From positions 1 through 64,000 of the forward strand of contig CAIMFY010000066.1 in the NCBI GenBank assembly GCA_903840415.1: 64,000 nucleotides of DNA, in the 5' to 3' direction. Source of the stretch: an uncultured Opitutia bacterium. Lineage in GTDB: Bacteria; Verrucomicrobiota; Verrucomicrobiia; Opitutales; Opitutaceae. The notes below the pieces were generated by a model. It was not told the DNA's origin and did not search any database. It was given only the letters and a program-made list of their open reading frames with translations. Positions 5,176-25,856 of this stretch are shown piece after piece (within the stretch, counting starts at the first letter, position 1; every line of letters starts with the position of its first letter). Both the position numbers and the translations under genes were made by a program.

Positions 5176-5194
5176 GGGCAACAAGTAGCCCAAA

Positions 5195-9464: not shown

Positions 9465-10499
9465 ATGAACCCAGTTTTTGAACAGGTTAAGCTTGAACTC
9501 CGCCGCGAGCCACAGAAATGGCTCGTGACCGGTGCTGCTGGTTTCATTGGTTCTCACTTGGTCGAAAGCCTGCTTAGTTTGGACCAGCAGGTCGTGGGTT
9601 TGGACAACCTCTCGACGGGACACCGGACCAACTTAGCTGAAGTGGAATCACTGGTAACACCTGCCCAGTGGAATCGGTTTCGTTTTGAACAGGGGGATGT
9701 TACACGTCTGGCTGACTGCCACAGGGCCTGTGCGGGCGTAAGTCGGGTGCTGCATCAGGCTGCTCTCGGCTCCGTGCCTCGTTCCTTGGAAGATCCGCTC
9801 CGGTCACACGCTAGCAATGTCGACGGGTTCATAAACATGCTGGTGGCCGCTCGCGATGTCGGCGTGAGCCGGTTTGTTTATGCCTCCAGCAGTTCGGTCT
9901 ATGGAGATCATCCGGTGCTTCCGAAAGTTGAAGCCAACATTGGCCGACCGCTTTCACCCTATGCGGCGACGAAGTTTATCAATGAGGTGTACGCCAATGT
10001 GTTTTCCCGAAGTTATGGGCTTCCAGTGATTGGGTTGCGTTACTTCAATGTATTCGGACCCCGGCAGGATCCGAACGGAGCATACGCGGCGGTGATTCCT
10101 AAATGGTTTTCGGCCGCAGCACATGGCGCCCCAGTGATCATCAATGGTGACGGTGAAACGAGCCGGGATTTTTGCTATGTCGCCAATGCCGTTCAGGCAA
10201 ATCTGCTCGCGGCAATGACGACATCGCCGGAAGCGGTTGATCAAGTTTACAATGTTGCGGTTGGACGGCAGACGACGCTCAATGAGCTCTTTGGAAAGAT
10301 CCGTGATCGTGTGGTGAAAGTGAAACCATCGGCCGTCATTGTAGAACCGAAGTACCATTCTGAGCGTGCGGGGGATGTGCGACATTCGCTAGCCGACATC
10401 GGCCTCATTCAATCCAAACTTGGCTATTCGCCTACCCATGATATTGATCAGGGATTGGATTTAGGCGCCAATTGGTATCTTCAGCCATCTGCCCAATAG
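9465..10499 (+). CDS. wbpP: UDP-N-acetylglucosamine 4-epimerase, WbpP/TviC type
   Basis: A 344-residue extended SDR. The NAD motif [10 protein letters not shown] lies at about 22-31, followed by LDNLSTGH, the serine region [10 protein letters not shown] and the catalytic YAATK. The long N-terminal arm before the Rossmann motif and the residues [10 protein letters not shown] are characteristic of WbpP-type epimerases, which convert UDP-GlcNAc to UDP-GalNAc (or the uronic acid forms). It is followed 18 bases later by the matching nucleotide-sugar dehydrogenase, giving a two-step route to UDP-GalNAcA. Cytoplasmic. Confidence 0.85.
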
Positions 10500-10517
10500 C
10501 ATAATTTCGCCAATTTT

Positions 10518-11843
10518 GTGAACTCAACTCGCCCAATATTCGAGGATTTTGCTTCGGGTAAGGAATCGATTGTAGTGATTGGCCTTGGCTATGTGGGACT
10601 GCCGCTTGCTAATCTCTTTTCCCGAAAGTTTAAGGTCGTAGGTTTCGATATTAATCAGCAGCGGATTTGCGAGTTGAAGGCGGGAGTTGACCGCACCCGC
10701 GAACTTACTGAAGAGCAATTGAAGTTGTCATCGCTATCCTATAGCTCAGACCCGATATGCTTGGCTTCAGCACGTCTGATCATTGTTACCGTACCTACGC
10801 CGATCGATGACCATAAGAATCCTGACCTGACGCCGTTGGTTAAGGCCTCGACGATGATTGGGAAACATATCAAGGGCGGCACGACAGTGGTATATGAATC
10901 AACGGTCTATCCAGGCTGCACTGAAGAGGATTGTTTGCCGCTTATCGAAGATGAAAGTGGGCTGAAGTGGAAGGAGAGCTTCTTCGCTGGCTATTCCCCT
11001 GAGCGAATCAATCCAGGAGATAAAGAGCATACCGTCGATCGGATCAAAAAAGTCGTGTCGGGTGATTCTGCTGAGACGGCGGAACTACTGCGACAGGTTT
11101 ACGGCGCCGTTATCACCGCCGGTATTTTCGTCGCTGCGACCATCAAAACCGCCGAGGCTGCCAAGGTCATCGAGAACACCCAACGCGATCTGAACATCGC
11201 ATTGATGAACGAACTCGCGTTGATCTTCGACCGGATGGGTATAAGCACCAGCGACGTGCTTGAAGCTGCCGGCACCAAGTGGAATTTCTTACCATTCAAG
11301 CCCGGTCTCGTCGGCGGACATTGCATCGGCGTAGATCCCTATTATCTCACTTTCAAGGCGGAGAGTCTCGGCTATCACCCGCAAGTGATTCTCGCCGGCC
11401 GGCGGATCAACGATAGCATGGGCAAGTTCATTGCTGAAAAAACCGTCAAGTTGCTCATCGCGAATGACCGTCCGGTGAGATCTGCAAAAGCATTGATCCT
11501 AGGCTGGACCTTCAAGGAAGACGTGCCCGATATCCGCAACACTCGTGTCATTGATATCTATCGGGAACTGGAGAGCTACGGCATTGATGTCAGTTGCTAC
11601 GACCCGCAAGTCGATCCCGCTGAGGTAATTCACGAATGTGGCATCGAACTACTCGAGGCGGCCCCGCAATGTGGCCCGTACGATGCCGTTATTCTTGCCG
11701 TGAAGCATAGCGCATTGCTGGAGGCCTATTCTTGGGAGAAAATCGAATCGTTGGGTGGCCTGCGCCCGCCGGTCGTCATTGATGTGAAAGGGTTTTTCTC
11801 GAAGCAGCAGTATCACGTCGAGGCAGTTGTCTGGCAGTTATGA
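10518..11843 (+). CDS. wbpO: UDP-N-acetyl-hexosamine 6-dehydrogenase, WbpO/TviB type
   Basis: A 441-residue UDP-sugar dehydrogenase starting at GTG. The NAD-binding motif GLGYVGLPLA (about 23-32) is followed by TVPTPIDDHKNPDL, YESTVYPG and the catalytic cysteine region GGHCIGVDPYYL; the C-terminal UDP-binding domain ends near residue 430. WbpO/TviB enzymes oxidise UDP-GalNAc or UDP-GlcNAc to the 6-carboxylate by a two-step NAD-dependent oxidation. Together with the preceding epimerase it should supply UDP-GalNAcA for the glycan. Confidence 0.85.
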   Translation: MNSTRPIFEDFASGKESIVVIGLGYVGLPLANLFSRKFKVVGFDINQQRICELKAGVDRTRELTEEQLKLSSLSYSSDPICLASARLIIVTVPTPIDDHKNPDLTPLVKASTMIGKHIKGGTTVVYESTVYPGCTEEDCLPLIEDESGLKWKESFFAGYSPERINPGDKEHTVDRIKKVVSGDSAETAELLRQVYGAVITAGIFVAATIKTAEAAKVIENTQRDLNIALMNELALIFDRMGISTSDVLEAAGTKWNFLPFKPGLVGGHCIGVDPYYLTFKAESLGYHPQVILAGRRINDSMGKFIAEKTVKLLIANDRPVRSAKALILGWTFKEDVPDIRNTRVIDIYRELESYGIDVSCYDPQVDPAEVIHECGIELLEAAPQCGPYDAVILAVKHSALLEAYSWEKIESLGGLRPPVVIDVKGFFSKQQYHVEAVVWQL

Positions 11844-12226
11844 TGAGATCCATCCTATCACGGGCGATGTGGACCGTCTGCCTAGTCGGTGGTCTGCTTG
11901 GCGCGGCACGCTTCTCTTCGGAGTGGAGGAGGGCAGGGTCCCACGAACAGGCCGGCCGCAAGCTCGTTGGCGTTCCGGCCAGATGTGGCCCAGACCGCGA
12001 TGATTATCGAATAACGGAGGCGCGAAGCGCTGGGAGCGACAGCGCCGCACACCGGAGAAAATGTCGCCTGCACATACCGCCGCCTGGTGCAGCTTGAAAT
12101 CGATAGTACATAACACCTGCTCTTGGCCTTTGGTCGATTCCTATAGCCTCATTTTCAAGACCGAAGTCGAATTCTAACGGTTCCCGTTTCAACATATCTA
12201 ATTTACTAAGTTCACTCAAATCTCCA
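11844..12226. other. 383-bp gap, no supported gene
   Basis: Between wbpO and gmd the sequence shifts in composition: 11844-12110 is GC-rich while 12110-12226 is AT-rich. Short open frames on both strands (about 60-90 codons) give low-complexity or non-homologous translations. The GC-rich part has the feel of a degenerate transposon end or dispersed repeat, but no inverted terminal repeats or transposase were recognised. The AT-rich part probably holds the promoter or leader for gmd. Confidence 0.4.
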
Positions 12227-13240
12227 ATGAAACGCGCAATTATCACCGGCATCACAGGCCAAGATGGGTCCTATCTCGCCGAGTTGCTTCTGGACAAGGG
12301 CTATGAAGTTCACGGCATGGTTCGGCGGAGTAGTTCCTTTAACACCGGTCGCATCGACCATCTTCATGGCCCCAATCCCGAATTCCAGAACAAACGTCTT
12401 TTATTGCACTATGGTGATATTACGGATACGACCTCGGTGACCAACATAATGGAGATTGTGCAGCCGGACGAGATCTACAACCTGGCGGCGCAGAGCCACG
12501 TAAAGGTGTCATTTGAGGTGCCCCATTACACCGCTTCGGTCGATGCCCTTGGCACGCTGAATATTTTGGAAGCCATCCGGCAGAAGAAGCTAAAAACCCG
12601 GTTCTATCAGGCTTCAACCAGCGAACTCTACGGCAAGGTGCAGGCCATTCCCCAAACCGAGACAACGCCGTTCTATCCACGTAGTCCCTATGGTGTGGCC
12701 AAGCTTTACGGATTCTGGATCGTCAAGAATTACCGCGAAGCTTACGGTCTTTACGCCTGTAATGGCATTCTGTTTAACCATGAATCTCCACGCCGTGGAG
12801 AATCTTTCGTCACGCGCAAGATTACACTTGGGGTTGCGCGTATTCTGCACGGTCTCCAGCAAAAAATTATATTAGGCAATTTGGATGCCAAGCGAGATTG
12901 GGGCTATGCACCGGAATATGTCGAAGCTATGTGGCGCATGCTGCAAACCGAGACTCCGGAGGATCTAGTAATCGCCACAGGTGAGACCCACACCGTTCGG
13001 GAGTTTGTCGAAGAGGCTTTTTCGCTTGCCGGGTTGGATTGGCGCAAACACGTCGTCGTTGATGACTCCTACTTGCGTCCTAGCGAAGTAGAGCTTTTAG
13101 TTGGCGACGCTACAATGGCGAAGGCTAAGCTGGGTTGGGAACCGCGTGTCAAATTTAAGGAATTGGTTAAGCTCATGTTCGACGCGGACTGCAAGGTTGC
13201 GGCGCTAGAGTCCAGAATGTCGACTATTCGGAAGATTTGA
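12227..13240 (+). CDS. gmd: GDP-mannose 4,6-dehydratase
   Basis: A 337-residue SDR that converts GDP-mannose to GDP-4-keto-6-deoxymannose. The NADP motif [12 protein letters not shown] is at about 8-19, followed by [15 protein letters not shown], the TSELYG threonine/glutamate pair, the YGVAK catalytic tyrosine/lysine and [17 protein letters not shown]. The C-terminal part is of the shorter bacterial kind ([16 protein letters not shown]). A second paralogue follows directly. No dedicated reductase (Fcl, Rmd) is visible in the window. Confidence 0.88.
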
Positions 13241-13279
13241 CGGCCCCTGCGTCAATCTTGGCGAATCGAAATTTCTTCG

Positions 13280-14317
13280 ATGAAGACTGCACTAATAATT
13301 GGGATCAGCGGACAGGATGGCTCCTATCTCGCCGAGTATCTACTAGAGGCGGGCTATGCCGTTCATGGCTTGGTGCGGCGGGCGAGCATGTTTAATCGCT
13401 CGCGCATCGACCATTTGCGGCTCGCGACCGCTGAGCACCAAGATCGCCTTTTTTTGCACTATGGCGATCTGGTTGACGTCACATCACTCCGGCGCACTTT
13501 AAAGAAGATTGCCCCCCACGAGGTTTATCACTTGGCCGGACAGAGCCACGTCGGACTTAGTTTCGAAATACCGGAGGTCACCTGTCAGGAAAACGGCATG
13601 GCCACGCTTGGCCTGATTGAAATACTACGCGATCTTGATTCGCCCGTGCGTCTATATAATGCATCCAGTTCGGAAATATTCGGTGCCCCCCCGGCTTCTC
13701 CGCAGAACGAAGAAACTTCCATGAATCCCGTTAATCCCTACGGCTGTGCAAAGGCTTTCGGCACGCAGCTCTGCCGGGTTTACCGGCAGTCCTACGGGCT
13801 CTTTGTGTGCAACGGAATCGCTTATAATCACGAGTCCCCCCGCCGCGGGGAAAATTTTGTTACTCGCAAGATTTCGCTCGGCGCCGCCCGAATCAAGTTG
13901 GGACAGCAGACCGTGTTGGAACTCGGCAATCTCGATGCCCGTCGCGATTGGGGCTATGCGCCAGAATATGTAAATGCCATGTGGCTAATGTTGCAGGCGG
14001 AAACACCGCGTGACTATGTGCTCGCCACCGGTGGCACCTGCTCGATTCGTGATTTTGCCATCGCGGCCTTCGATGAGCTTCGCCTAGGCTTGCGTTTTGA
14101 GGGCAGAGGCGTGGACGAAATCGGCCGCCGCACCGACACGGGTGAAGTTGTGGTGAGGGTGGCTGCGCGGTACTTCAGGCCTGCGGAATCCTTGGAACTT
14201 GTCGGCGATGCTTCGCTCGTGCGGCAGACGCTTGGTTGGACGCCGAAGATTACGGGGTCTGGATTGGCCCGCCTGATGGCGAAAGCGGATTTCGAGTTAC
14301 TTGCGGCCGACCTGTGA
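13280..14317 (+). CDS. Second GDP-mannose 4,6-dehydratase-like SDR
   Basis: A 345-residue paralogue of the preceding gene: [46 protein letters not shown] and [17 protein letters not shown] are all present. Unlike its neighbour it keeps the longer insertion GRGVDEIGRRTDTGEVVV before RYFRPAE, as in the E. coli Gmd type. So the two are diverged, not a fresh tandem copy. It may be a second GDP-mannose dehydratase or act on another GDP-sugar; catalytic residues look intact. Confidence 0.75.
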   Translation: MKTALIIGISGQDGSYLAEYLLEAGYAVHGLVRRASMFNRSRIDHLRLATAEHQDRLFLHYGDLVDVTSLRRTLKKIAPHEVYHLAGQSHVGLSFEIPEVTCQENGMATLGLIEILRDLDSPVRLYNASSSEIFGAPPASPQNEETSMNPVNPYGCAKAFGTQLCRVYRQSYGLFVCNGIAYNHESPRRGENFVTRKISLGAARIKLGQQTVLELGNLDARRDWGYAPEYVNAMWLMLQAETPRDYVLATGGTCSIRDFAIAAFDELRLGLRFEGRGVDEIGRRTDTGEVVVRVAARYFRPAESLELVGDASLVRQTLGWTPKITGSGLARLMAKADFELLAADL

Positions 14318-14343
14318 CTTGAGGATCAGATTGATAAAAGCCA

Positions 14344-15183
14344 ATGAATCTTAAGAACACGGTAAAGAGTATCGTTCGCTCACGGGGTTTTGATTTGATA
14401 CGATACGATCCTGCCTTTATAAGACACAGGCAGGAGGTCCGAGTCGGTGAGATAGAAATTGTATTCTGGATCGCCAACCTGACCGGGCATAAGTGGTATT
14501 CCGGCGGAAAATACTTCGATCACGTTGAGTCGATTGAATTGCTGAAGCTGATTCGACCCGGCATGCGGGTGCTGGAGATCGGCTGCAATCACGGCTTGTT
14601 CTCGTGTTTGATGGCCAAAGCAACCGGTCCCGCGGGGTCGGTTGTGGCTGTGGATTGTGTCGCAGAAAATGTAATGATTTCATCGGCCAACGCCTATGCT
14701 AATCGACTTAGCAATCTGACGGTGCTTCAATATGCGGTGACTGAGTGGGCAGAGGGGAAAGTTCAGGTGGATTCAGGCGCCAACGGCTTTGTCGTCTCCA
14801 CTCCGGGGATGGGTGACACAGAAGGCTCGGAGTCGATCAGTATTGATGAATTAAGCGCGAAGTATGGCCCCTTCGACCTATTGAAAATAGATGTCGAGGG
14901 TTATGAAGCCTGTATTCTGCGTGGCGCGCAGCAGACGCTCTGCAGTATTTCCGCCCTAGCGCTAGAAATCCATGGCGGTGGTGCCGGTCTGGAGCGCTAT
15001 GATTCTTCGCCAGGCGAAGTTGTAAAATTAATCAAACCATATGGGTTTGAAGGAGTCTGCTTTAATGCGGCCGATACCTCAACGCGTTTCCGATTTACTG
15101 AGGTGCCTCTCGTGAAATTTGACTTGGAACTTGTGCCGGACTCGCATCGCAACGTTTTCCTGCGAAAACTGGCTTCCCGGTAA
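14344..15183 (+). CDS. FkbM-family methyltransferase
   Basis: A 279-residue SAM-dependent methyltransferase. Motif I reads VLEIGCNHGLFSCLMAK (about 76-92), followed by an acidic strand VVAVD and the FkbM core FDLLKIDVEGYEACILRGA (about 178-196). FkbM enzymes O-methylate sugars or polyketides; in glycan clusters they usually cap or decorate residues. A second FkbM gene lies at 22579. The sugar target cannot be read from sequence. Confidence 0.8.
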   Translation: MNLKNTVKSIVRSRGFDLIRYDPAFIRHRQEVRVGEIEIVFWIANLTGHKWYSGGKYFDHVESIELLKLIRPGMRVLEIGCNHGLFSCLMAKATGPAGSVVAVDCVAENVMISSANAYANRLSNLTVLQYAVTEWAEGKVQVDSGANGFVVSTPGMGDTEGSESISIDELSAKYGPFDLLKIDVEGYEACILRGAQQTLCSISALALEIHGGGAGLERYDSSPGEVVKLIKPYGFEGVCFNAADTSTRFRFTEVPLVKFDLELVPDSHRNVFLRKLASR

Positions 15184-15303: not shown

Positions 15304-17244
15304 ATGGATATTAAGAGCAGGGAAATTGAAGAGAAGGTCTTCGGTAAGGCGCTGTTGACGAGATTTGTGGAAGAGCGTTTGTTGGCGCTCTTTTCGGAGG
15401 GGAAACTTTCCGGCACTTTGCATACGTGCATTGGCCAAGAACTTGTGGGGGCGGTGCTGGCCGAATTTCTCCAGCCCGGTGACTGTGTTTTCTCGAATCA
15501 TCGGGGACATGGACATTTTCTTTCCACGGTTGATGACCCGGAGGGACTGATCGCTGAATTGATGGGTCGCGAAACGGGCGTATGTGGTGGCCTCGGAGGC
15601 AGCCAGCACCTGTGCAGTCATGGTTTTTTTTCCAATGGAATTCAGGGAGGGATTGTCCCGGTAGCAACCGGGATTGCCTTCGCCAAGAAACTTGAGTCCA
15701 AAAATGGCATCTCGACTGTCTTCATCGGCGATGGGACCCTAGGGGAAGGCGCAATTTATGAAGCTTTCAATGTGGCGGCCAAATGGGGTCTCCCACTTCT
15801 CGTGGTCATGGAGGATAACGGCATAGCGCAATCCACTCTCCAGCACGAAACGTTTGCGGGTTCGATCGCAGCACGGGCGGAAGGTTTTGGCCTTGGTTAC
15901 GTCCAGGCAGACACTTGGGATTGGCGGGGCTTGCTCGAAAAAGCGGGTCGCATTGTCAGCGATGTAAGGAACAGGCGACGTCCCTCCCTGTTACACGTCC
16001 GCACCTATCGGCTGAAGGCGCATTCCAAGGGGGACGATACCCGGCCGCGCAGCGAAATTGAGACATTTGAGGCCCGGGATCCGGTCAACCTGTTTATCAA
16101 TGATGCGACAAGCGTTCCCATCGTTGCGCGGGTCCGGGATCGCGTAGCCGCCGCGGTTGTTGCGGCCGAAAACTCAGAGTTTGCTGTCTATCATCCACCC
16201 AAATCGGAGCCAATGGGCCCTGCGTTTTGGAATAAGACGGCGGTTAAAAAAGAACGGCTCGGTCGCGCCCTCAACCGTTGTTTTGGCGACGTTATGACGC
16301 AGCATGAAGAGATAATTATGATCGGTGAAGATATTGAGTCGCCATACGGCGGCGCATTCAAGATCACTATGGGCCTTTCCGATAGTTTTAAGGGACGGGT
16401 TCGCAATACCGCGATCTCGGAATCCGCAATTGTCGGCATCGGCACGGGCCTCGCATTGATGGGGAGGCGCCCGGTCATCGAAATCATGTTTGGCGACTTT
16501 CTGGGACTGGCGTTTGACCAGTTGATCAACGGCGCCGCGAAATTCGGCCGGATGTATAACGGGAAGGTGACTGTGGATATGGTGGTTCGCACACCCATGG
16601 GGGGGCGGCGTGGATATGGGCCTACACACAGCCAGAGTTTAGAACGTCATTTCCTCGGTGTGCCGGGACTTAGGGTACTTGCGCTCAATAACCTTCTGGA
16701 TCCCATTGCGCTTTATGGCCCACTATTCACAGAACATAATGGACCTACATTGGTGATCGAAAACAAAATTGCATATGGAAGCGAGCTCCGCGCGGAATTT
16801 ACACCGGGATTCGCGGCCTATTCGTCGCAGGAGCGCTTTGCCACGGTATGGTTGAAGCCCGAGGCACGGGTGATCGATGTTACATTGCTAGGCTATGGCG
16901 GGATGAGCGACACCCTTGTGTCTGCGGCGGAACGCCTATTCGAGGAGCATGACCTGATTGCCCAAGTTCTTTGCCCGATGCAGTTATATCCTTTTGATGT
17001 AAGACCGATATTGCCCGTGATCCTGAATTCCCAGCGCTTGATCGTGGTAGAAGAAGGGCAGGGCTTTGCCAGTTTTGGGGCCGAGGTTGTCGCACAAATT
17101 GCCGAGACTGCCCCCTCCTTCCGAAACCGGTTACATCGCATAGCACCGCCTGCGGACATTATTCCGTCCAGCGGTCGAATGGAGAAAAGCATGCTGCCTT
17201 CGCTTGAGGAAATAATCACCCGCTCGGTTGAATTCTGTGCATGA
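15304..17244 (+). CDS. Fused E1 alpha/beta thiamine-diphosphate 2-oxo acid dehydrogenase
   Basis: A 646-residue protein from the ATG at 15304 (a GTG at 15271 would add 11). The N-terminal half is an E1 alpha with the TPP motif GDGTLGEGAIYEAFN ending in EDN. The C-terminal half is an E1 beta beginning near residue 320 (IGEDIESPYGGAF), with FGDFLGLAFDQL, GGRRGYGPTHSQ and a transketolase C-domain. Fused E1 chains occur in branched-chain and acetoin-type complexes. It decarboxylates a 2-oxo acid and hands the acyl group to a lipoyl-E2, encoded next with a 4-base overlap. No E3 is encoded nearby, so a housekeeping enzyme would serve. Location in a glycan cluster implies an acyl donor for sugar modification. 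Confidence 0.8.
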   Translation: MDIKSREIEEKVFGKALLTRFVEERLLALFSEGKLSGTLHTCIGQELVGAVLAEFLQPGDCVFSNHRGHGHFLSTVDDPEGLIAELMGRETGVCGGLGGSQHLCSHGFFSNGIQGGIVPVATGIAFAKKLESKNGISTVFIGDGTLGEGAIYEAFNVAAKWGLPLLVVMEDNGIAQSTLQHETFAGSIAARAEGFGLGYVQADTWDWRGLLEKAGRIVSDVRNRRRPSLLHVRTYRLKAHSKGDDTRPRSEIETFEARDPVNLFINDATSVPIVARVRDRVAAAVVAAENSEFAVYHPPKSEPMGPAFWNKTAVKKERLGRALNRCFGDVMTQHEEIIMIGEDIESPYGGAFKITMGLSDSFKGRVRNTAISESAIVGIGTGLALMGRRPVIEIMFGDFLGLAFDQLINGAAKFGRMYNGKVTVDMVVRTPMGGRRGYGPTHSQSLERHFLGVPGLRVLALNNLLDPIALYGPLFTEHNGPTLVIENKIAYGSELRAEFTPGFAAYSSQERFATVWLKPEARVIDVTLLGYGGMSDTLVSAAERLFEEHDLIAQVLCPMQLYPFDVRPILPVILNSQRLIVVEEGQGFASFGAEVVAQIAETAPSFRNRLHRIAPPADIIPSSGRMEKSMLPSLEEIITRSVEFCA

Positions 17245-18605
17245 AAACAGTCATTTCAGTCCCGACGATCAACGCCAATGACGAGGTGGTTGTAATTGTG
17301 CGATGGCATGTGGCAGACGGTATGCAAATCGAGGCAGGGGTGCCGCTTGTTGACGTGGAAACCACTAAGGCCGTCGCCACCGTGCAGGCGGACCATTCTG
17401 GATGGGTCAGGCGCTGTTGCATCGAAGGTGACGAACTCCCGGTCGGGGCAGACCTCGCATGGGTTTTCAGCAAAGAGGATGAGCTTCCGCCCGTGGTTGA
17501 CAAAGCTGAGGCGAAACCCGCCGACAGCCCCAAGGCCCTGCCGACGCGGGAGGCTCCACGGCCTAACGGACTTCCGACAACGCCTATGGCTGACTTAACG
17601 CCTAGCGAAGTTCCACCGGCATTCTCGACGACAAGATTCTCCCCATTGGCCGAGGAGTTGGCGACCCGGATGCTTGTGGATCTTGACGCGCTGAAGAAAG
17701 AGAATCTCGGCCTCATCACCAGTGCAATGGTGCGGGCTTGGGTCGGGCAAAGCGGGGCTCTAGCAGACCCAGCCTCGCCGCCCGCCGCGGCGGCAGACGG
17801 CATCCGGCGCGAGCGAATTCCGGCGGGCAAGCGCGCGGAGATTGACGCGCTGCGTCAAGGAGCGGGAGAGCACCTGAACAGTTCACTTACGATCTACCTC
17901 AATTCGCGGGAGATCCGCGCTCGCGCCGAGGAGTCTGGTTACGGACTGCTTCCCCTGGTGATCGCGGAACTCTCTCCACTGCTGAAAGGGAATCCGAAAT
18001 TCACTGCTTTTGCCGAAGGTAACGAAATCGGATTCCACAATGCTGTTCACCTGGGGGTGGCGATCGATCTCGGCGACGGACTTCGGGTAGTGACGATCCG
18101 CGACGCCGACCAGCTGGATGCAGCTGCAATCAGCGAGCGCCTGGCGGATCTCACCCTCGACTACATGGGAAAAGTGTTAACGGCCGGTTCGGTGCAGGGC
18201 GCGACCTTTACCGTTACCGATCTCACGGGGCTGGACATACTCCACTTTAAGCCGCTTATCAATGGGCGGCAGTCAGCGATCCTCGGAATAGGAGCTGATT
18301 CGGCGCAAGCCGGTCATCCGATGACGTTGACGATTACGTTTGATCATCGCGTACTCACGGGCCGCGAAGTGGGTGAATTGCTGCAGGCACTTCGTGGTCG
18401 ATTGCTGGCTCATGCGATTGCGCCCTCGGCGGCAGGGACCGAACAGGACAAGGCAAACCTGCCTTGCTGTGATGTCTGCTTGACGGACCTTGCGAGCTAC
18501 TACGAGGAATTTGGCCAGCAAACGTATGCGCATATGCTGCAATACATGCGGCGTGACGGCAGCAGCGGGCTAATTTGCCACCGCTGCCAGGCGGGCTATT
18601 TATAA
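17241..18605 (+). CDS. Lipoyl-bearing E2 acyltransferase with altered active site and zinc-ribbon tail
   Basis: This 454-residue protein has a lipoyl domain (1-78, lipoyl lysine K43 in VETTKAVAT), a linker and a degenerate subunit-binding domain (about 133-168, SPLAEELATRMLVDLDAL). The catalytic domain spans about 190-392. The catalytic histidine H369 is kept in DHRVLTG, but the usual aspartate of DHRxxDG is threonine (T373). An extra tail (about 405-454) has C410-x-x-C413 and C446-x-x-C449, probably zinc-binding. It overlaps the E1 gene and lies 3 bases before the ACP/AcpS gene. The acyl acceptor may be the neighbouring carrier domain rather than CoA; that is inference. Confidence 0.75.
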   Translation: MKTVISVPTINANDEVVVIVRWHVADGMQIEAGVPLVDVETTKAVATVQADHSGWVRRCCIEGDELPVGADLAWVFSKEDELPPVVDKAEAKPADSPKALPTREAPRPNGLPTTPMADLTPSEVPPAFSTTRFSPLAEELATRMLVDLDALKKENLGLITSAMVRAWVGQSGALADPASPPAAAADGIRRERIPAGKRAEIDALRQGAGEHLNSSLTIYLNSREIRARAEESGYGLLPLVIAELSPLLKGNPKFTAFAEGNEIGFHNAVHLGVAIDLGDGLRVVTIRDADQLDAAAISERLADLTLDYMGKVLTAGSVQGATFTVTDLTGLDILHFKPLINGRQSAILGIGADSAQAGHPMTLTITFDHRVLTGREVGELLQALRGRLLAHAIAPSAAGTEQDKANLPCCDVCLTDLASYYEEFGQQTYAHMLQYMRRDGSSGLICHRCQAGYL

Positions 18606-18608
18606 TCC

Positions 18609-19283
18609 ATGCATCCCGCCCTGTCAGTCATCGCACAAATCGGTCGCACGGACGCCGCATCGTTGCGCCCGGAGCATACGCTCAATAGCCTGAAAATAAA
18701 CAAGTCACTCGGGCTTGGCTTGCTGCGCAGCGCACTCGAGCGCCGTTTTCAGCGCAAGCTGCCGGTGATCACGTGGAAGACGACAATTCAAGAACTACTG
18801 GACGCGACAGATGGAGCGGGTGAGGCGCGGCCGGCTCTGCCCGTCGCGCATGGTGTTACTGGTGAAGGCCAGCATCCGGGCTTCGCTGCCAGGCTGGCGA
18901 AAGAACCAAGAGCGGAAGGGTTCGAACTTGGGCACGGTGTAGATATTCAGGAGATATCCGCGCTTCCGGAGACGGCGGATAAATGGGAGGAATACCCATT
19001 TTACGCGGGTCACTTCTCCGCCGACGAGATGGCGGCGGCGCGGGGGAAACCGGATGTGCGCGCCCATCTTGCCGGAATTTGGAGCGCAAAGGAGGCGGTT
19101 AAGAAGTCTGACCCCGAATTGGCGGCGCTTGAGTTCTCCGATATTGCCATTTCGCAGGACCCCAATGGTCGCCCCGAGGTTCAAATCGCTCACCAGAGAT
19201 TGCGGGACCGCTTTGCTGTCATTGTTTCGATCAGCCATAGTTCCCTCTACGCAATTGCGAGCGCCATCACACGGCGGCGGTGA
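18609..19283 (+). CDS. ACP-like domain fused to holo-ACP synthase (AcpS-type)
   Basis: This 224-residue protein has two parts. Residues 1-68 have the helix pattern of an acyl carrier protein (LRPEHTLNSLKINKSLGLGLL then TTIQELL), with Ser33 at the phosphopantetheine position but NKSLG instead of DSL. Residues about 107-222 are a 4'-phosphopantetheinyl transferase of AcpS type: GHGVDIQEI (D112), GIWSAKEAVKK (E162) and SISHSSLYAIA (H210). It could prime its own carrier domain with coenzyme A's pantetheine arm. Placement between E2 and an acyltransferase gene suggests a protein-bound acyl intermediate. Confidence 0.65.
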   Translation: MHPALSVIAQIGRTDAASLRPEHTLNSLKINKSLGLGLLRSALERRFQRKLPVITWKTTIQELLDATDGAGEARPALPVAHGVTGEGQHPGFAARLAKEPRAEGFELGHGVDIQEISALPETADKWEEYPFYAGHFSADEMAAARGKPDVRAHLAGIWSAKEAVKKSDPELAALEFSDIAISQDPNGRPEVQIAHQRLRDRFAVIVSISHSSLYAIASAITRRR

Positions 19284-19284
19284 T

Positions 19285-19839
19285 ATGAACACTTTCAAGA
19301 CGAATCTCCGCCGGGTTGCCTCGGGGGCATTAATGTATGCCTGCAATCATGTGGTTAATCGAATTCCCCTACATTCATGGCGGATTCACATTTACCAGAA
19401 GATCTACGGTTTTGACTTGGATCACGGGTCGACCATCCTGCTCGGCGTCAAATTCTACGGCTCGAAACGGTTCAGCCTGGGCAAAGGCAGCGTAATAAAT
19501 GATGGATGCCGCCTTGATAATCGCGCCGGCATAACCATTGGGAATAGCGTTTCGCTTTCCTCCGAAGTCGCCGTGATTACCGCGGACCATAACGTGCAGG
19601 ATAGCGCCTTCGAACCGAGCCTCAGGTCCGTAAGCATCGGGGATTTCGTGTATGTCGGAATTCGTGCAACGATCCTCCCCGGGGTGACAATTGGTACCGG
19701 GGCAGTCGTTGCCGCGTCTTCCCTGGTGACGGCCGATATTCCTCCCTTTTCGATCGTTGCCGGAAATCCGGCGAAAATCATCGGGTGGAGGAGCAAAGAC
19801 CTGAGCTACACATTGGATTACCGCCCATATTTTCAATAA
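19285..19839 (+). CDS. Left-handed beta-helix (hexapeptide) acyltransferase
   Basis: A 184-residue acyltransferase of the LbetaH family, starting at the ATG one base after the AcpS stop. Hexapeptide rungs run from about 60 to 165 (GSVINDGCRLDNRAGITIGN, VSIGDFVYVGIRATILPGVTIGTGAVV), with the catalytic histidine in ITADHNV and the closing GNPAKIIGW. It resembles WbbJ/WcaF-type sugar O-acyltransferases. As the last gene of the E1-E2-ACP/AcpS series it is the likely transferase that places the acyl group on a sugar. Confidence 0.8.
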   Translation: MNTFKTNLRRVASGALMYACNHVVNRIPLHSWRIHIYQKIYGFDLDHGSTILLGVKFYGSKRFSLGKGSVINDGCRLDNRAGITIGNSVSLSSEVAVITADHNVQDSAFEPSLRSVSIGDFVYVGIRATILPGVTIGTGAVVAASSLVTADIPPFSIVAGNPAKIIGWRSKDLSYTLDYRPYFQ

Positions 19840-19846: not shown

Positions 19847-21058
19847 ATGCGATTCGTATACATAGATGAAAACTTTAGCGATGCAGGGGGGCATAATGCC
19901 GACTACGCACTCGGCATTCTAAGTGCGTGCGAAAAGCGCGAGCACTCATGCGCCATTTACGCAAACAGGCGCCTAGATTCCTCGTTTCTCAGTTTCAGCG
20001 GCATTATCCCCGTTTTTAGCATCAAGACCTCAACGCTGCATCAGATCGGCCTTGGGCGCGGACTGGGGCGGTTGGGTCAAGCGATGCGCCTAGCCTATAG
20101 CAATATCTCCCATGGTTTGGATCTGCTCAGGAAGGTCAATATTGGCAAGGATTGCTCGTTGGTGCTAATTGCGGGCATATCGCCCCGGGTAACTTTGGCG
20201 TATTTAGTTTGGTTCGCCTATTTGTCACTGATTGGAATGCGAACCAACATAGCGATATTGCTTCATGATCAGGCACCAGGTTTTGCCGGTCTTGAGTTGA
20301 GGCTGTTGCGGATGGCTGGATTCCGGCAGAAAATAGATTTTGCCGCACAGTCTCCCTCAATAGCTGAACAATTCCGGATTAGATTCCATGAACCCATCTG
20401 CATAATGCCGATGCCGATGGTGGATCATTCGCGCAGGAAGCCTTCGGCGGAGGGAGCCGGCCAAATTCGCAAGGAGAAAATAAACGTGCTTTATCTTGGC
20501 CTCGCTTCTTCCGCGAAAGGCTTTGGTTTCTTGGTCGATACTCTCACTTCGTGCAGAGCCATTGACGCCTTGGGGGGTGCTTTGAAATTCACCATTCAGT
20601 ATAACCCAGTTAAGGGGGATGAGTTGGCCAAGCAAGCTGGTGAGCGCCTGTCGGCGGCTGCCGAGAGTTGCCACATGATTACTGTTCTCAGAGGGCCCTT
20701 GGCGAAGGATGCCTATGAGACACAACTTGTTATGGCTGACGTTATGATATTGCCCTATGATCCGAGGTGTTATCGATATATCCAATCTGGAATCATTACG
20801 CAGGCCATTGCGGCCGGGAAGCCACTGATTGTCTCCGCGGACAGTAATTTGGAAAAAGAGATGCAACTTCACGGTTCGGGAATAAGTTTTGAATATGGAT
20901 CGCCCGCATCGTTCATGGATGCCCTGTGCCATCTCGTGGACAACCTAGATGACTTTTCCGGCAAAGCAGCGCTGAAGTCGGCCGCCTATCTCCAAATGCA
21001 CGGCCCCGCGGCCTATGTGGCAAAAATGGAAGCAATGGCAACCGGTCGCCCAGAATGA
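19847..21058 (+). CDS. Glycosyltransferase, GT-B fold (family 4-like)
   Basis: A 403-residue protein beginning MRFVYIDENFSDAGGHNADY, an N-terminal GT-B start with a glycine-rich acceptor loop. The C-terminal half has INVLYLGLASSAKGFGFLV (about 211-229), the donor-site region ADVMILPYDPRCYRYIQSG, then QAIAAGKPLIVS. Sequence is more diverged than typical GT4 enzymes, so donor and linkage are unknown. It sits between the acyltransferase and Wzx flippase genes and presumably adds one sugar of the repeat unit on the cytoplasmic face. Confidence 0.65.
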   Translation: MRFVYIDENFSDAGGHNADYALGILSACEKREHSCAIYANRRLDSSFLSFSGIIPVFSIKTSTLHQIGLGRGLGRLGQAMRLAYSNISHGLDLLRKVNIGKDCSLVLIAGISPRVTLAYLVWFAYLSLIGMRTNIAILLHDQAPGFAGLELRLLRMAGFRQKIDFAAQSPSIAEQFRIRFHEPICIMPMPMVDHSRRKPSAEGAGQIRKEKINVLYLGLASSAKGFGFLVDTLTSCRAIDALGGALKFTIQYNPVKGDELAKQAGERLSAAAESCHMITVLRGPLAKDAYETQLVMADVMILPYDPRCYRYIQSGIITQAIAAGKPLIVSADSNLEKEMQLHGSGISFEYGSPASFMDALCHLVDNLDDFSGKAALKSAAYLQMHGPAAYVAKMEAMATGRPE

Positions 21059-21086
21059 GAATGGCGGCAAAGTTAGTTGGCGGCAA

Positions 21087-22574
21087 ATGATGGATAATAT
21101 CCTCAAACGCCTCTTGAAAGGCACGTTTTGGTCGGTGGCGGCCACTGGGTTATCCTCGGTTTTCAATCTGCTGGCAGGGGTGATTTGTGCTCGGACCCTA
21201 GGGAAGGAAGTATTTGGCCAAATGGGTGTGCTGCAGAGCACGGTCGGATTTGTCGGCCTGCTGGCGGGTCTCGGCTTGGGCACCACTGCGACGCGATTTG
21301 TATCTCGGTATCTTCTTTCTGATCCCGCCAGATGCGGCCGTTTGCTCGGCGGCATACTGCTCATGGCTGCCTCGACAATATTTGCCGGCTCGCTGCTGTT
21401 ACTGCTGGGCGCCCGAGTCGTCGCTGCCAACTGGCTGCAAAGTCCGGGGTTGGAAACCCCGGTGAGAATTTGTGCGGCCTGGGTATTTGCCCTTGCTGCA
21501 GGAGAGTTGATCATGGCGGCGCTGGCCGGTCTCGAGTCATTTCGGGCGGTTGCGGCGCAAAGTTTCATCAGGGGAAGCTTGGTTTTTGTGGGAACAGTCG
21601 CTGGACTTAGGTGGGGACTGGAGGGGGCCCTTGTCGGTTGGTCGTTTGGCCTGGCCGCCAGCGGCCTTGTCTTGCTGCGAGTCCTCTGGCGGGAATGCGC
21701 CCGGCACGGAATTCGTATCAGCTACATAAAATCGGCAGAGGACGTGCGATCCGTGCTTGGCTACGCGTTGCCCACATTGATCAGCGGCCTAGCCTCTGCC
21801 CCCTTCGTTTGGTTCGCCAACACGATTATTGTAAGGAATCCCGGTGGGTATGAGCAAATGGCACTGTTAACCGTAGTCTACCAATGGCGCGGCGTATTCA
21901 CCTATTTACCAGTCAGCGTTTCTAGGGTAGTCCTGCCATTGCTGAGTTCGAGCGATACGGCCAGCGTATCCCATGCTGGCCAGGCCTTTGCGATCAGCAA
22001 TCTCGTGAATCAGTTTGTCGTTTGGGGCGGCGGAATCGTGCTGCTTTGCCTTTCCGGCGTTTTGCTCTCGTTCTATGGCGAGGGGTTTCAATCCGGCCGT
22101 GTAGCCTTCACGCTGGTACTCGGTGGAACCATGGTCGGATTTGCCGGGAATTCGCTTGGTAGCCTGATCCTGGCGCGGGGCTTACTCTGGTTGGGCATAG
22201 CGGGTAATTTGTTAACCGGTCTTAGCCTAGTGGTTTGTGTGCTGCTGATCAGTCACCAGCGCGGGGCGGTGGCGGTGGGGATCGGTACGATGATCGGCTA
22301 TACCCTCAATTTGTCCCTTTGCGTGACGGTGTTAACCTGGCGCAAAGAAATCTCTGCCCAGATCGGATGGAGAATATTTGGCGCGGCCATGGCGGCCGTG
22401 ATTATTGTGCTAGCCATGGCGCAGGCATCCCCACTGGTGGCCGCCGCGGCGGGCGTCCTTATTCTTCCGGCATCACTGGTAGCCGTTTTTCAAGTATTCG
22501 CGAAGCCTGAGGGGTTTTCGCTTTCCTCATTATTATCTTTTACTCGGAAATCCGAGCCCCGCACGGCGGTCTGA
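21087..22574 (+). CDS. wzx: Wzx-type lipid-linked oligosaccharide flippase
   Basis: A 495-residue polytopic protein with about 12-14 hydrophobic helices and the family start region LKRLLKGTFWSVAATGLSSVFNLL, typical of the polysaccharide transporter (MOP/MATE-like) superfamily. The start MMDN at 21087 is chosen; an ATG at 21015 exists but overlaps the previous gene by 44 bases. Wzx flips undecaprenyl-diphosphate-linked units to the periplasm, where the Wzy at 25853 can polymerise them. It lies in the middle of the glycosyltransferase genes. Confidence 0.85.
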   Translation: MMDNILKRLLKGTFWSVAATGLSSVFNLLAGVICARTLGKEVFGQMGVLQSTVGFVGLLAGLGLGTTATRFVSRYLLSDPARCGRLLGGILLMAASTIFAGSLLLLLGARVVAANWLQSPGLETPVRICAAWVFALAAGELIMAALAGLESFRAVAAQSFIRGSLVFVGTVAGLRWGLEGALVGWSFGLAASGLVLLRVLWRECARHGIRISYIKSAEDVRSVLGYALPTLISGLASAPFVWFANTIIVRNPGGYEQMALLTVVYQWRGVFTYLPVSVSRVVLPLLSSSDTASVSHAGQAFAISNLVNQFVVWGGGIVLLCLSGVLLSFYGEGFQSGRVAFTLVLGGTMVGFAGNSLGSLILARGLLWLGIAGNLLTGLSLVVCVLLISHQRGAVAVGIGTMIGYTLNLSLCVTVLTWRKEISAQIGWRIFGAAMAAVIIVLAMAQASPLVAAAAGVLILPASLVAVFQVFAKPEGFSLSSLLSFTRKSEPRTAV

Positions 22575-22578
22575 TATT

Positions 22579-23424
22579 ATGATATTACAATTGAAAATAT
22601 TCATCGCCAAATGGACTAGCGGAATCGTGCCTTACAAGTGTATCAACGATCACTGGTATCGACTCCCGTTCGGCGTGTCCCGGGCTTTCGCGCCCTGGAA
22701 GAAGCATATTCTGGAGCCCTACGAACTGGACGCGATCAGGAAATATGGGGCAAAGGATGGCGTGTACCTTGATATTGGAGCGAATGTCGGCCTGCTAACT
22801 CTGGCCATGCGGGAGTGGGCCGGAACTGCAGCCCGGATTTATGCGGTGGAACCAAATCCCCATGCGTTTGAACTGCTGGGTGGGGTCTTACGCTTGAACC
22901 GGATGAACCCGGCCGGCACTTGGGCCCTCGCCATCTCAGATTACTGTGGCACTACCAAGTTCCAAGTTTCCCAAAGGGACTCTTTGGGGGTTATGTCTTC
23001 TCTGAGGCGCAACGATCCCCTGGCGTCCGAGGTGGAAGTGCCCTGCATGACCATTGATGCACTGTGTCGGCAGTGGGACAGATTGGATTATATCAAAATT
23101 GATGTCGAAGGAGCCGAGATTTTGGTCCTGACGGGTGCGCAGGCGACCCTCATCCGACTGCGCCCGGTGGTTCAAGTTGAAGTGCACGGCCCGTTTCTTG
23201 GCGCTTTCGGCCACAGCGTCGGTCAACTTTTCGACCTGATGAGTGGGCTCGGCTACGTGGCGATCAATGCCGTGACATCGGAAGTAACGAACGCTGCTGC
23301 CTTCAATACGGATACAGCCCTCGATGCGAGGCACCCCTTGACGCGCGAAAACATGCGATATTCGGGCTACGGCCATGTGGTATTCAGACCGGGAGCGGAC
23401 AATCCCGGAGGCTCCGATGCCTGA
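22579..23424 (+). CDS. FkbM-family methyltransferase
   Basis: A 281-residue SAM-dependent methyltransferase. Motif I is GVYLDIGANVGLLTLAMR (about 60-77), followed by YAVEPNP, the acidic motif and the FkbM signature DYIKIDVEGAEILVLTGA. It starts 4 bases after wzx and its end overlaps the next glycosyltransferase by 8 bases, so the genes are cotranscribed. It probably O-methylates a sugar of the repeat unit. It is only distantly like the FkbM protein at 14344, suggesting separate targets. Confidence 0.8.
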   Translation: MILQLKIFIAKWTSGIVPYKCINDHWYRLPFGVSRAFAPWKKHILEPYELDAIRKYGAKDGVYLDIGANVGLLTLAMREWAGTAARIYAVEPNPHAFELLGGVLRLNRMNPAGTWALAISDYCGTTKFQVSQRDSLGVMSSLRRNDPLASEVEVPCMTIDALCRQWDRLDYIKIDVEGAEILVLTGAQATLIRLRPVVQVEVHGPFLGAFGHSVGQLFDLMSGLGYVAINAVTSEVTNAAAFNTDTALDARHPLTRENMRYSGYGHVVFRPGADNPGGSDA

Positions 23425-24598
23425 GCAGATGCCCGGTCTTCCGCGGCTGCTGGTCATTGCGTGTTATCCCCCGGAAGGCGGGGGCGGAGGAGGGGTGATC
23501 ATGCGCTCACTGTTAAAGGAATATCCAGATGAAAGCATTATGTGGCTGGCCCTGCGCCCAGATCGGTCGAAGCGCAAGAAATGGTATCGCCCGGAAGTTT
23601 CCCGCTGGATTATGCCCTTCTATGTGCCGGCTAAAGTCGGGAGGCTGATTGGGCTCGCGGCGGCGGGAAGAATCGAGGCACTGCTCGAAAGGGTGGCGGT
23701 TGTTTTTGCGCAATTTGCCGTCAGAAAACACAAGCCGAGTGACATCTTGGTAGTCGCGGATTTCTTCACGATTCGCTCGGCGAGTATCATTATCAATAAA
23801 TTCCCGGCGCGCAGGTTTCACCTCACGGTGCACGATGACCCGTTGATTACGGCGCGGATGATTGGATCGGGCGTCAATTTACAGAAGCTAGAGGAGGCAT
23901 TTGCTGCGCTTTGCCGGCGAGCAGTGACCGTCGACTGTGTTTCGGCCAGGATGGCCCTGAAATATAAGACTGAATATGGTATTCAGTCACAGATAATCAC
24001 GCGATGCGCGGAGGATTCATACCTTGCACAGCTTAAATTAAAAGCAGTTCGTCCGAAAAGCGATGAAATCAACATGATCCTGTGTGGTTGGGGCGATTGC
24101 CCGCCCCCCTGGCCAGACAACCTTATGGAGGCCCTGCGGTTCGTCAGAAACCAACTCAAGGTGAATTTTCATGTCTTTGATCCCAAGTTTCTGAAGTATC
24201 AAGGGTGCGGATGGGTATTTTTCCATGAGCACATGCCAGAGATCGAGTTTGATGCACTGCTCGCGGAAATGGATATCAGCTACGCGCCGGACCCGTTTAC
24301 GGAAGAGGGCCGGCGCTTCGCCGCGATGTCCTTGTCGACTAAAGTGGTGACCAGCCTTTGCGCCGGCTTGCCATTTGTTTACCATGGCCCGTATGATTCG
24401 ACTGTGGGCGATCTGGTGCGCGAGGATCCATTGTTGGGCCTCATCGTAGAGAGCCAGTCCCCGAACGACCTTGCGCAGGGGATCCTTGCAATTTGGGAAA
24501 ACTACACTGCGCGAGTCGCCGCCTGCAGGACCTTTGCGCAGGAGCATTATTCAGCCAGCGTGATAAGGAGGAAGTTCCTTTCTAGGTTCGAGCATTAA
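23417..24598 (+). CDS. Probable glycosyltransferase (GT-B fold)
   Basis: A 393-residue protein from the ATG at 23417; the frame can extend to 23375. It opens with LLVIACYPPEGGGGGGVIMRSLL, a glycine-rich GT4-style N-terminal loop, and has a C-terminal donor half with EMDISYAPDPF, then VTSLCAGLPFVYHGPYDSTVGDLV. The match to any defined GT family is weak, so donor and acceptor cannot be assigned. Position between FkbM and another glycosyltransferase supports a role in assembling the same oligosaccharide. Confidence 0.6.
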   Translation: MPEQMPGLPRLLVIACYPPEGGGGGGVIMRSLLKEYPDESIMWLALRPDRSKRKKWYRPEVSRWIMPFYVPAKVGRLIGLAAAGRIEALLERVAVVFAQFAVRKHKPSDILVVADFFTIRSASIIINKFPARRFHLTVHDDPLITARMIGSGVNLQKLEEAFAALCRRAVTVDCVSARMALKYKTEYGIQSQIITRCAEDSYLAQLKLKAVRPKSDEINMILCGWGDCPPPWPDNLMEALRFVRNQLKVNFHVFDPKFLKYQGCGWVFFHEHMPEIEFDALLAEMDISYAPDPFTEEGRRFAAMSLSTKVVTSLCAGLPFVYHGPYDSTVGDLVREDPLLGLIVESQSPNDLAQGILAIWENYTARVAACRTFAQEHYSASVIRRKFLSRFEH

Positions 24599-24647
24599 CT
24601 GTACTGAAAAGCACGCTCCGCTAAGTCATTCAGAGGCTGTTTCCTAC

Positions 24648-25856
24648 ATGCGCATCCTTCTAGCCAGTGCGTACGATCCCTTGAACCAAACGCAAGGGCA
24701 AGGCGTTATTATTAAGCATACGCTAAATGCCGGAATGGCAGGCCATCCGAGCGAAGGGATCGAGATCGGTTTATCGTTGTTTCGCGATGGCGCCCGCAGA
24801 CCCAAGAACGAAATGGTTACGCATTTTACTAATATACGCAAGGAGCAGTATCAGCCCGCGCCTAGTTTGAACAGGCTTTCATTGATCCGTGATTTGTTAA
24901 ACCTACCATTGACACGCTCGGAGCGTGACTATGTTTCACGAATTGCTGATATCGCCAAGAAATACGATATCGTGTTGTGGTTTGGCTCCCCTTACGATCC
25001 GGTAACGCACCGAATTGCCCATGAGATAGAGTGCCCGGTCCTTTGCCACGTAAACGATTCGATTTCTCTGCACGAGGAGCGTCGCGAAGGGCGAGGAGCA
25101 ATTTTACGGCGGGTAATTGCCGCAAGGGTGGAAGGGGAAATGCTGCGGAATGCCGGGTTTGCGGCGATAGTTTATGTCGGCGCAGTTGATGCGGAAAAGG
25201 CCCAGACTATTCTTCAGGGCGCGGAAACAATCACTGCTGTGTCGCGCATTCCATTGGGAGTTGATACAGATTATTTCCGTCCACGCGCTGGAAGACCGGC
25301 TAAGCGAAAGACAATCTTGTTCGCAGGCTCAATGTGCTACGCCCCGAATATTGACGCCGCTAGGCGCTTGGTCCTTGAGATTTTGCCACTTGTCCAATGC
25401 AGCCCACTTGTGCGCATTGTGGGCCACAGCCCGCCAAAAGAAGTTCAAGTTCTGGCAAATCGCGGGGATGGCACTAGTATCGTGGTCACAGGGAGGGTTG
25501 AAGATATCAGCGAGGAGTATCGGAATGCCGATCTGCTTGTCGCGCCCCTTGAGCGCGGGGCTGGGATGCAATTTAAGGTGCTGGATGCACTGGCTTCAGG
25601 AGTACCCGTTGTGACATCGCCACTAGTCGCCGGTGGGATAGGTCCGCAAGTGCCGGGGTTGTTTGTCTGCCGCAGTGCTGCGGAATATGCGGCAAAAATC
25701 GACCAGCTGCTGCAGTCTGATCAATTCAGGCTCGACAGAGGTGTAGCTGGTAGAGCGCACGTCGAGAGATATTATACTTGGGCGAAACGAACGCGCAGCC
25801 TATTAGACCTGCTTGGAGCGACAATCGTAAGAAAACGACCAAGGGCAATAAAGTGA
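24648..25856 (+). CDS. Glycosyltransferase family 4-like protein
   Basis: A 402-residue GT-B enzyme. The N-terminal domain starts MRILLASAYDPLNQTQGQG. The C-terminal donor domain begins near residue 220 (KRKTILFAGSMCYAPNIDAA) and holds ADLLVAPLERGAGMQFKVLDALASGVPVV, the typical GT4 donor-site region. The IPLGVDTDYFRP linker before it is also a GT4 mark. The stop overlaps the GTG start of the polymerase gene. Sugar specificity is unknown. Confidence 0.8.
   Translation: MRILLASAYDPLNQTQGQGVIIKHTLNAGMAGHPSEGIEIGLSLFRDGARRPKNEMVTHFTNIRKEQYQPAPSLNRLSLIRDLLNLPLTRSERDYVSRIADIAKKYDIVLWFGSPYDPVTHRIAHEIECPVLCHVNDSISLHEERREGRGAILRRVIAARVEGEMLRNAGFAAIVYVGAVDAEKAQTILQGAETITAVSRIPLGVDTDYFRPRAGRPAKRKTILFAGSMCYAPNIDAARRLVLEILPLVQCSPLVRIVGHSPPKEVQVLANRGDGTSIVVTGRVEDISEEYRNADLLVAPLERGAGMQFKVLDALASGVPVVTSPLVAGGIGPQVPGLFVCRSAAEYAAKIDQLLQSDQFRLDRGVAGRAHVERYYTWAKRTRSLLDLLGATIVRKRPRAIK

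Follow-up and report, generated by a model that had tools for sequence, protein, structure and literature searches.

Among the cassettes thought to load glycolyl units for nonribosomal peptide synthetases (NRPSs), NapB/NapD and QncN/QncL are reportedly those of Peng et al. in 2012, a study known here as cited by others. In the excerpted text of one report, the similarity of SclQ1-4, accompanied by the phosphopantetheinyl transferase (PPTase) SclP, to QncN/QncL/QncM is the basis for proposing that they convert a ketose phosphate into a glycolic acid unit (PMC6335953). The excerpt of the dnacin paper likewise describes glycolyl formation from ketose phosphate for NapB/NapD homologues (PMC7570522), and for the pepteridine cluster of Photorhabdus, part of PMC5384830 proposes an E1/E2 pair that primes a carrier domain rather than coenzyme A (CoA). 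Here, we describe a four-gene set in a 64,000-nt stretch (the window) of contig CAIMFY010000066.1 (assembly GCA_903840415.1) from an uncultured Opitutia bacterium. The genes encode a fused thiamine diphosphate (ThDP)-dependent E1, a lipoyl acyltransferase (E2), an acyl carrier protein (ACP) domain joined to AcpS, and a hexapeptide acyltransferase. Pfam matches and a predicted ACP fold confirmed these four adjacent genes, as named in the initial annotation, at 15304–19839 on the plus strand. The set probably forms a dedicated acylation line, which as judged from sequence would lead from a ketose phosphate through glycolyl-lipoyl and glycolyl-ACP to an apparently Wzx/Wzy-type polysaccharide.

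The window E1 matched E1_dh (6.9e-41), Transket_pyr (6.6e-24) and Transketolase_C (1e-12) of Pfam, and its best plasmid match was RenH, with 47.6% identity across query residues 1–643. Relatives were sought with the E1 aligned to RenH as the query, taking one genome per species, and the best 80 of at least 557 were kept as named loci; their labels name 18 phyla, two loci are unplaced, and two (L075 and L087) derive from one metagenome-assembled genome (MAG). An E1 tree of 93 rows (quick method, LG+G4), flagged for two long-branched E1s of the window's own genome and for uneven amino acid composition, placed the window E1, RenH, the named loci and three NRPS/polyketide synthase (PKS)-type E1s (S. 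cattleyicolor, Streptomyces NBC_01136 and P. polymyxa) in a group of 85, split from eight ordinary E1s with a Shimodaira–Hasegawa-like approximate likelihood ratio test (SH-aLRT) support of 100. RenH is nested within this large group, and the first to diverge are the three split NRPS/PKS-type E1s (94). Such E1s are rare in the phylum, being found at E ≤ 1e-100 in four of 387 genomes, the window's included, and two of these four are just 36% identical.

The E1-beta His of oxo-acid E1s is catalytic. It lies before (x)PGLKV, and His occupies the position matching residue 452 in each of the five oxo-acid E1-beta chains of solved structure that were compared (1um9, 1ik6 and three human pyruvate dehydrogenase [PDH] sequences) and in six of the eight ordinary E1s, the other two having Asn and Ala. 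The window E1 lacks this His; position 452 is Gly here and in all 85 members of the group. All 85 members likewise have Gln101, Ser110 and Tyr438, which occur in 0/8 ordinary E1s. NCBIfam equivalog cut-offs for PDH E1 and E2 were not reached, the best models giving 205 of 394 and 102 of 552 bits. Acetoin dehydrogenase was rejected as an identity because the E1s of C. difficile and of Thermus (aco-annotated) lie outside the window group and retain the His. The initial annotation had assumed an oxo acid as the donor, to be predicted from E1 phylogeny. That phylogeny points instead to the E1s of cassettes for which a ketose phosphate is described, and this, together with the uniform Gly at the His position, makes the oxo acid a probably mistaken choice.

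The E2 carries a Biotin_lipoyl domain (2.1e-8; residues 5–72, with Lys43 in ETTKA) and a 2-oxoacid_dh domain (1.3e-30). It is 33.5% identical to RenI of the renieramycin plasmids (E 6e-62), the next-best E value among the matches listed (30 of 338 records) being 2e-17. The lipoyl Lys is kept in 74/74 and the E2 His of the DHR motif in 50/50 sequences; the Asp of DHRxxDG is Thr in the window E2 and is retained in 11/50 relatives. A peripheral subunit-binding domain gave no Pfam match at E ≤ 1 in the window E2, in which a similar-looking stretch was seen by eye near residues 132–167. The protein ends in a CxxC...CxxC tail (18468–18605), which is also carried by 37 related E2s and is present in 34/34 E2s with AcpS, the window's included, versus 4/16 without detected AcpS. 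We know of no name for this tail; by its sequence it resembles a zinc-binding docking element and may possibly serve as one for the ACP-AcpS protein. In a Ruminiclostridium locus (L033, 11923–19095), the E2 runs on into a 2390-aa protein in which, by eye, the part following the E2 domain begins like a ketosynthase.

The third protein is an ACP domain and an AcpS in one chain. Its PPTase part matched ACPS of Pfam (2.4e-9), and both the fold and the metal/catalytic residues of an AcpS-type enzyme were found: Asp112 is kept in 34/34 proteins (33 named loci and the window), and Glu162 and Lys166 in the 33/33 that are readable (one contig ends). The AlphaFold model of the whole protein has a mean predicted local distance difference test (pLDDT) score of 88.9 and a predicted template modelling score (pTM) of 0.59, and its best structural matches are AcpS-type (Foldseek E 6.4e-10; Z 17.1). 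Since the AcpS domain dominated these whole-protein searches, the N-terminal domain was predicted alone. This model (pLDDT 88.0) has the helical ACP fold with a Ser at the start of helix II; Foldseek matched it to acyl carrier proteins with a probability of ~1.00, a TM score of ~0.7 and a best E of 0.005, no match reaching E 0.001. The Ser (Ser33) is invariant in 34/34, and the residue before it is Lys32 in the window and Asp in 0/34.

In sequence searches, the N-domain profile gave weak matches to ACPs in the PDB (best E 0.0045), where 15 of the 21 listed sequences at E ≤ 10 bear the name ACP, and comparison with four cassette-type ACPs gave an intermediate result (probability 51.5, E 0.00015). 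Pfam PP-binding gave no match in the window N-domain and matched two of the 34 at E ≤ 5 (best 0.011), none significantly; 4PPT_N, the N-terminal domain of Sfp-type transferases, matched 17/31 whole carrier proteins at E ≤ 0.1. Alignment A5 held all 34 proteins and alignment A3 31 of them, L057, L097 and L104 being omitted for unclear starts or a contig end. In 57 related genomes and the 387 genomes of the phylum, carrier matches outside the window covered the AcpS domain only, as did all three matches of a plasmid search. The aligned Bacteroidota carriers (L093, L102, L108, L109, L112 and others) show a hydrophobic C-terminal stretch resembling a membrane anchor.

The fourth protein belongs to the hexapeptide superfamily (Hexapep, 7.5e-8) and scored 83.2 of the 192 bits of the NCBIfam WcaF cut-off, which it thus did not reach. 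In 21 of the 80 loci (L041, L044, L053, L058, L064, L065, L073, L081 and others), the gene directly after E1 encodes a lipoyl-hexapeptide fusion; all 21 match Biotin_lipoyl and Hexapep, and 11 also match PglD_N, so that there are two kinds, WcaF-like and PglD-like. These fusions are, on sequence grounds, the best evidence that a sugar may be the acyl destination. In L086 (2722–9820) and L107 (8840–14170), a lipoyl-PglD fusion adjoins NeuB and CMP-sugar synthase genes, and an N-glycolyl nonulosonic acid is a possible product. Among the matches listed in open-licence literature, no title or abstract opening described lipoyl-hexapeptide fusions or the four-gene set in glycan clusters.

The neighbourhood search suggested in the initial annotation recovered the gene set. 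E1, lipoyl-E2 and ACP-AcpS stand in line in 33 of the 80 loci (the carrier type, by profile classification), and besides the fusions, three loci have a lipoyl start only. A lipoyl domain lies within 3 kb of E1 in 70/80 loci; in 67 it is joined to an E2 or hexapeptide domain, and three are incomplete. A hexapeptide gene was found on the same strand within 2 kb in 22/33 carrier-type loci versus 2/13 loci with E2 alone and 0/10 without a lipoyl match; genes were called by simple open reading frame (ORF) rules, and counts in high-GC loci may be low. A chance neighbourhood was rejected because the gene set recurs across loci. Over the starred branches of the E1 tree, the fusion label changes at least six times and the carrier label at least nine, some changes reflecting contig ends or missing genes, which suggests that carrier and fusion back ends may have replaced each other more than once.

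A neighbour tally with single window proteins (E ≤ 1e-10) found some window-type glycan gene in 17/33 carrier and 16/21 fusion loci, the latter partly the fused protein itself, and in 2/13, 1/10 and 1/3 of the E2-only, no-lipoyl and lipoyl-start classes. This tally is insensitive to diverse glycosyltransferases, and Pfam scans of the neighbours were therefore used. As raw counts with no background control, in which one protein may match several families, the 110 carrier-type neighbours (set A7: all listed ORFs from 32/33 loci, L108 yielding none) gave 18 Hexapep, 11 Glycos_transf_1, 9 Glycos_transf_2, 11 Epimerase, 10 Polysacc_synt_2 and 4 DegT matches. The 63 neighbours from the 21 fusion loci (set A8: 63 of 71 ORFs, eight overlapping or doubtful short frames having been dropped by eye) gave, again as raw uncontrolled counts, 6 Glycos_transf_1, 5 Epimerase, 5 polysaccharide deacetylase, 2 NeuB and 2 CTP_transf_3.

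Three actinomycete relatives (L068, L077 and L082) adjoin what by eye are NRPS-like ORFs, so the E1 front end also serves peptides. One planctomycete E1 branch (support 100; L045, L047, L054, L063, L067 and L080, the last contig-cut) has no lipoyl match in the fetched DNA. The E1 of L042, a MAG labelled Klebsiella pneumoniae, groups with that of the Verrucomicrobia locus L091 (100), and the label is doubtful.

Coordinates of the module and the flanking glycan genes in the window
Feature	Position	Strand	Remarks
Fused E1 (alpha+beta), ThDP-dependent, two-component-transketolase type	15304..17244	+	646 aa; Pfam, tree; Gly452
E2: lipoyl domain (Lys43), acyltransferase domain (His369 in DHRVLTG), C-terminal CxxC...CxxC tail (Cys410-Cys449)	17241..18605	+	454 aa
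ACP domain of third protein	18609..18827	+	Putative pantetheine site Ser33
AcpS-type phosphopantetheinyl transferase domain of third protein	18915..19283	+	Asp112, Glu162, Lys166 kept
Hexapeptide (left-handed beta-helix) acyltransferase, WcaF/maltose-O-acetyltransferase-like	19285..19839	+	184 aa; likely final sugar acyltransferase
Upstream glycan genes: epimerase, UDP-sugar dehydrogenase, two GDP-mannose-4,6-dehydratase-like, FkbM methyltransferase	9465..15183	+	
Downstream glycan genes: glycosyltransferase-like, Wzx-like flippase, FkbM methyltransferase, weak Wzy-like polymerase	19847..29572	+	

The four genes are tightly packed: E1 and E2 overlap by 4 bases, E2 is separated by 3 bases from the ACP-AcpS gene (18609–19283, one protein of 224 aa), and this by 1 base from the hexapeptide gene; E1 could alternatively start at an in-frame GTG at 15271. 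From its gene content, the set apparently sits in a Wzx/Wzy-type glycan cluster. The scanned neighbours are glycan genes, and neither NRPS/PKS families nor an E3 were found among them. Of the downstream glycosyltransferase-like genes, the one at 19847 is weak and that at 23375 has no Pfam match. G+C per 2-kb step is 0.49–0.57 between 10 and 32 kb and 0.55–0.69 elsewhere in the window. To the left of the glycan genes lie, at 1091–8609, AbiEii-like, Mrr-type nuclease and recombinase genes and two RepB/ParB-like genes; to the right, a 229-aa ORF (32680–33369) with no Pfam match at E ≤ 0.001 is flanked by an alcohol dehydrogenase gene and a PglD-like gene. Elsewhere, the genome encodes a dihydrolipoamide dehydrogenase (Lpd) above the family cut-off, LipA and an LplA/B-type gene, with no LipB match in the genome, and another contig carries a separate PDH-like E1/E2 set. 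Given these lipoyl supply genes and the separate PDH-like set, the module need not serve central metabolism.

In the mechanism that we propose, the fused E1 would transfer a C2 unit from a ketose phosphate (e.g., xylulose 5-phosphate) onto ThDP, and the lipoyl-Lys43 of E2 would act as the oxidant to give glycolyl-S-lipoyl. The fused AcpS would furnish Ser33 of the ACP domain with a pantetheine arm, to which the E2 catalytic domain would hand the glycolyl group. The hexapeptide transferase would then take glycolyl off the carrier and attach it to a hydroxyl group of a sugar in the growing glycan, while a housekeeping dihydrolipoamide dehydrogenase would reoxidize the lipoyl arm. The domains, residues, gene order and recurrence, as well as the lipoyl-acyltransferase fusions of relatives, are established at the sequence level. 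The ketose donor and the glycolyl group are preferred with moderate confidence by phylogenetic bracketing, because of the grouping of E1 with RenH and the NRPS cassettes, the published cassette proposals, Gly452, and Gln101/Ser110/Tyr438. We infer that the ACP is the direct donor to the hexapeptide enzyme and that the sugar is O-acylated; both back ends finish at a sugar-acyltransferase fold in many loci, for which reason the window hexapeptide enzyme is taken to receive the acyl group. The acyl chain put forward in the initial annotation thus stands in its course from E1 through lipoyl and a dedicated carrier to a sugar acyltransferase (21/80 fusions; 22/33 loci) and finds no support in its oxo-acid donor.

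The homology of the E1 and E2 to those of pyruvate and branched-chain dehydrogenases, together with the alpha-keto acid carrier loading proposed for pepteridine in part of PMC5384830, would also accommodate the same chain fed by a 2-oxo acid, so that the sugar would receive a branched-chain or other acyl group from the ACP. We consider this unlikely in view of the separation of the window E1 from the eight ordinary E1s, its grouping with RenH and the NRPS-cassette E1s, the Gly in place of the beta-His, and the three fixed residues that none of those eight has. It is less likely still that the E1-E2-ACP part supplies a small polyketide or peptide and that the hexapeptide gene encodes an unrelated acetyl-CoA-dependent O-acetyltransferase of the polysaccharide. 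Hexapeptide enzymes of this family are normally acetyl-CoA-dependent and the three actinomycete loci have NRPS-like neighbours, as such a division would have it; the scanned window neighbours hold no NRPS/PKS family, however, and both the recurrence of a hexapeptide gene near the module in two thirds of the carrier-type loci (22/33) and the lipoyl-hexapeptide fusions speak against it. The six planctomycete E1s of one branch without a lipoyl match (one contig-cut) would fit a free transketolase-like E1 that adds C2 to a keto-sugar, giving a branched sugar, or to another acceptor, with E2 and ACP acting separately. This is quite improbable here, because a lipoyl domain accompanies E1 within 3 kb in 70/80 loci and the DHR His and lipoyl Lys are retained throughout (50/50 and 74/74).

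Several observations weigh against our preferred reading of a ketose-derived glycolyl group passed to a glycan. The beta-His is absent also in two of the eight ordinary E1s, including this genome's PDH-like E1 (Asn), so its loss alone is no proof of a ketose donor, and these eight comparison sequences were mostly identified by annotation. The Nap and Qnc sequences lie outside the comparison, the link to tested enzymes running through published similarity and gene order. The ACP domain is without the usual Asp before Ser (the DSL motif), and its sequence matches are weak. The window hexapeptide protein resembles acetyl-CoA enzymes; the known WcaF/maltose O-acetyltransferase and PglD/NeuD-type hexapeptide enzymes use acetyl-CoA. 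In L034 and L035, whose E1s are closest to that of the window, the hexapeptide matches lie on the opposite strand, and the single-protein tally found a glycosyltransferase in 1/33 carrier-type loci. Finally, 13/80 loci have an E2 without AcpS nearby, and 10/80 are without a lipoyl match in the fetched DNA, three of them (L080, L100 and L103) being cut off shortly after E1. Despite these loci, homologues are not consistently encoded without the carrier or acyltransferase, the pattern that the initial annotation had named as speaking against its view.

Looking beyond the window, we see even chances that CoA-free glycan acylation extends across many phyla (18 by labels), with a transketolase-like E1 and the glycolyl passing via ACP-AcpS or directly via a lipoyl-O- or N-acyltransferase fusion. 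If so, lipoyl chemistry of central metabolism would feed surface-glycan decoration directly, bypassing acyl-CoA, and the NRPS loading trick of a few antibiotics would belong, as one branch, to a wide family that is otherwise located in glycan clusters. Such genes would allow glycolyl groups on polysaccharides, as well as N-glycolyl sugars, to be predicted from a genome, and ACP and AcpS genes within glycan clusters would become testable. Fusions beside NeuB and CMP-sugar synthase would predict that bacteria form N-glycolyl nonulosonic acids with no need of a hydroxylase.

Compared with known systems, the module shares its E1 and E2 families and the lipoyl swinging arm with the pyruvate and branched-chain 2-oxo-acid dehydrogenase complexes, from which it differs in the adjoining ACP, in having Gly for the beta-His and in having Thr for the Asp of DHRxxDG. 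WcaF/maltose O-acetyltransferase and PglD/NeuD are left-handed beta-helix sugar acyltransferases like the window's, whose relatives here carry their own lipoyl domain. The RenH/RenI pair (renieramycin plasmid, Ca. Endohaliclona) likewise consists of a fused E1 and an overlapping E2, whose FDHRVLTGRE motif is shared with the window E2, but no AcpS or hexapeptide profile match was found in the 28 kb fetched, and RenI has no CxxC...CxxC tail; we take RenH/RenI to lie in an NRPS setting. The pepteridine E1 and E2-T-C proteins are likewise proposed to prime a carrier, with the acyl group ending up on a small molecule, but, in the excerpt of that report, the proposed donor is an alpha-keto acid and an NRPS condensation domain, not a hexapeptide enzyme, performs the transfer (PMC5384830).

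As excerpted, the NapB/NapD/NapC, QncN/QncL/QncM and SclQ1-4 sets come closest, each with a ThDP E1, a lipoyl E2 and an ACP, the scl set also with a PPTase, and with the same predicted chain from ketose to glycolyl-ACP as in the window. A Streptomyces plasmid cassette in the window's E1 group has the gene order ACP-E1alpha-E1beta-E2, as in SclQ1-4. The window shares with the Nap/Qnc/Scl/Ren type the clade of cassette E1s (RenH and NRPS-type, the Nap, Qnc and Scl sequences lying outside the comparison) and an adjoining lipoyl E2 and dedicated ACP, but not the NRPS cluster setting. The initial annotation knew of no well-described pathway with this exact set; its front half is in fact known, SclQ1-4 with SclP lacking, as far as the excerpt goes, little more than the sugar acyltransferase. 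In the window, the ACP and AcpS are one protein and the E2 bears the CxxC...CxxC tail, and whereas the Nap/Qnc/Scl product enters a peptide, the set ends with a hexapeptide acyltransferase in a glycan cluster. As read here from sequence, the locus would represent a new variant in which the known NRPS glycolyl-loading cassette has been adapted to glycan decoration.

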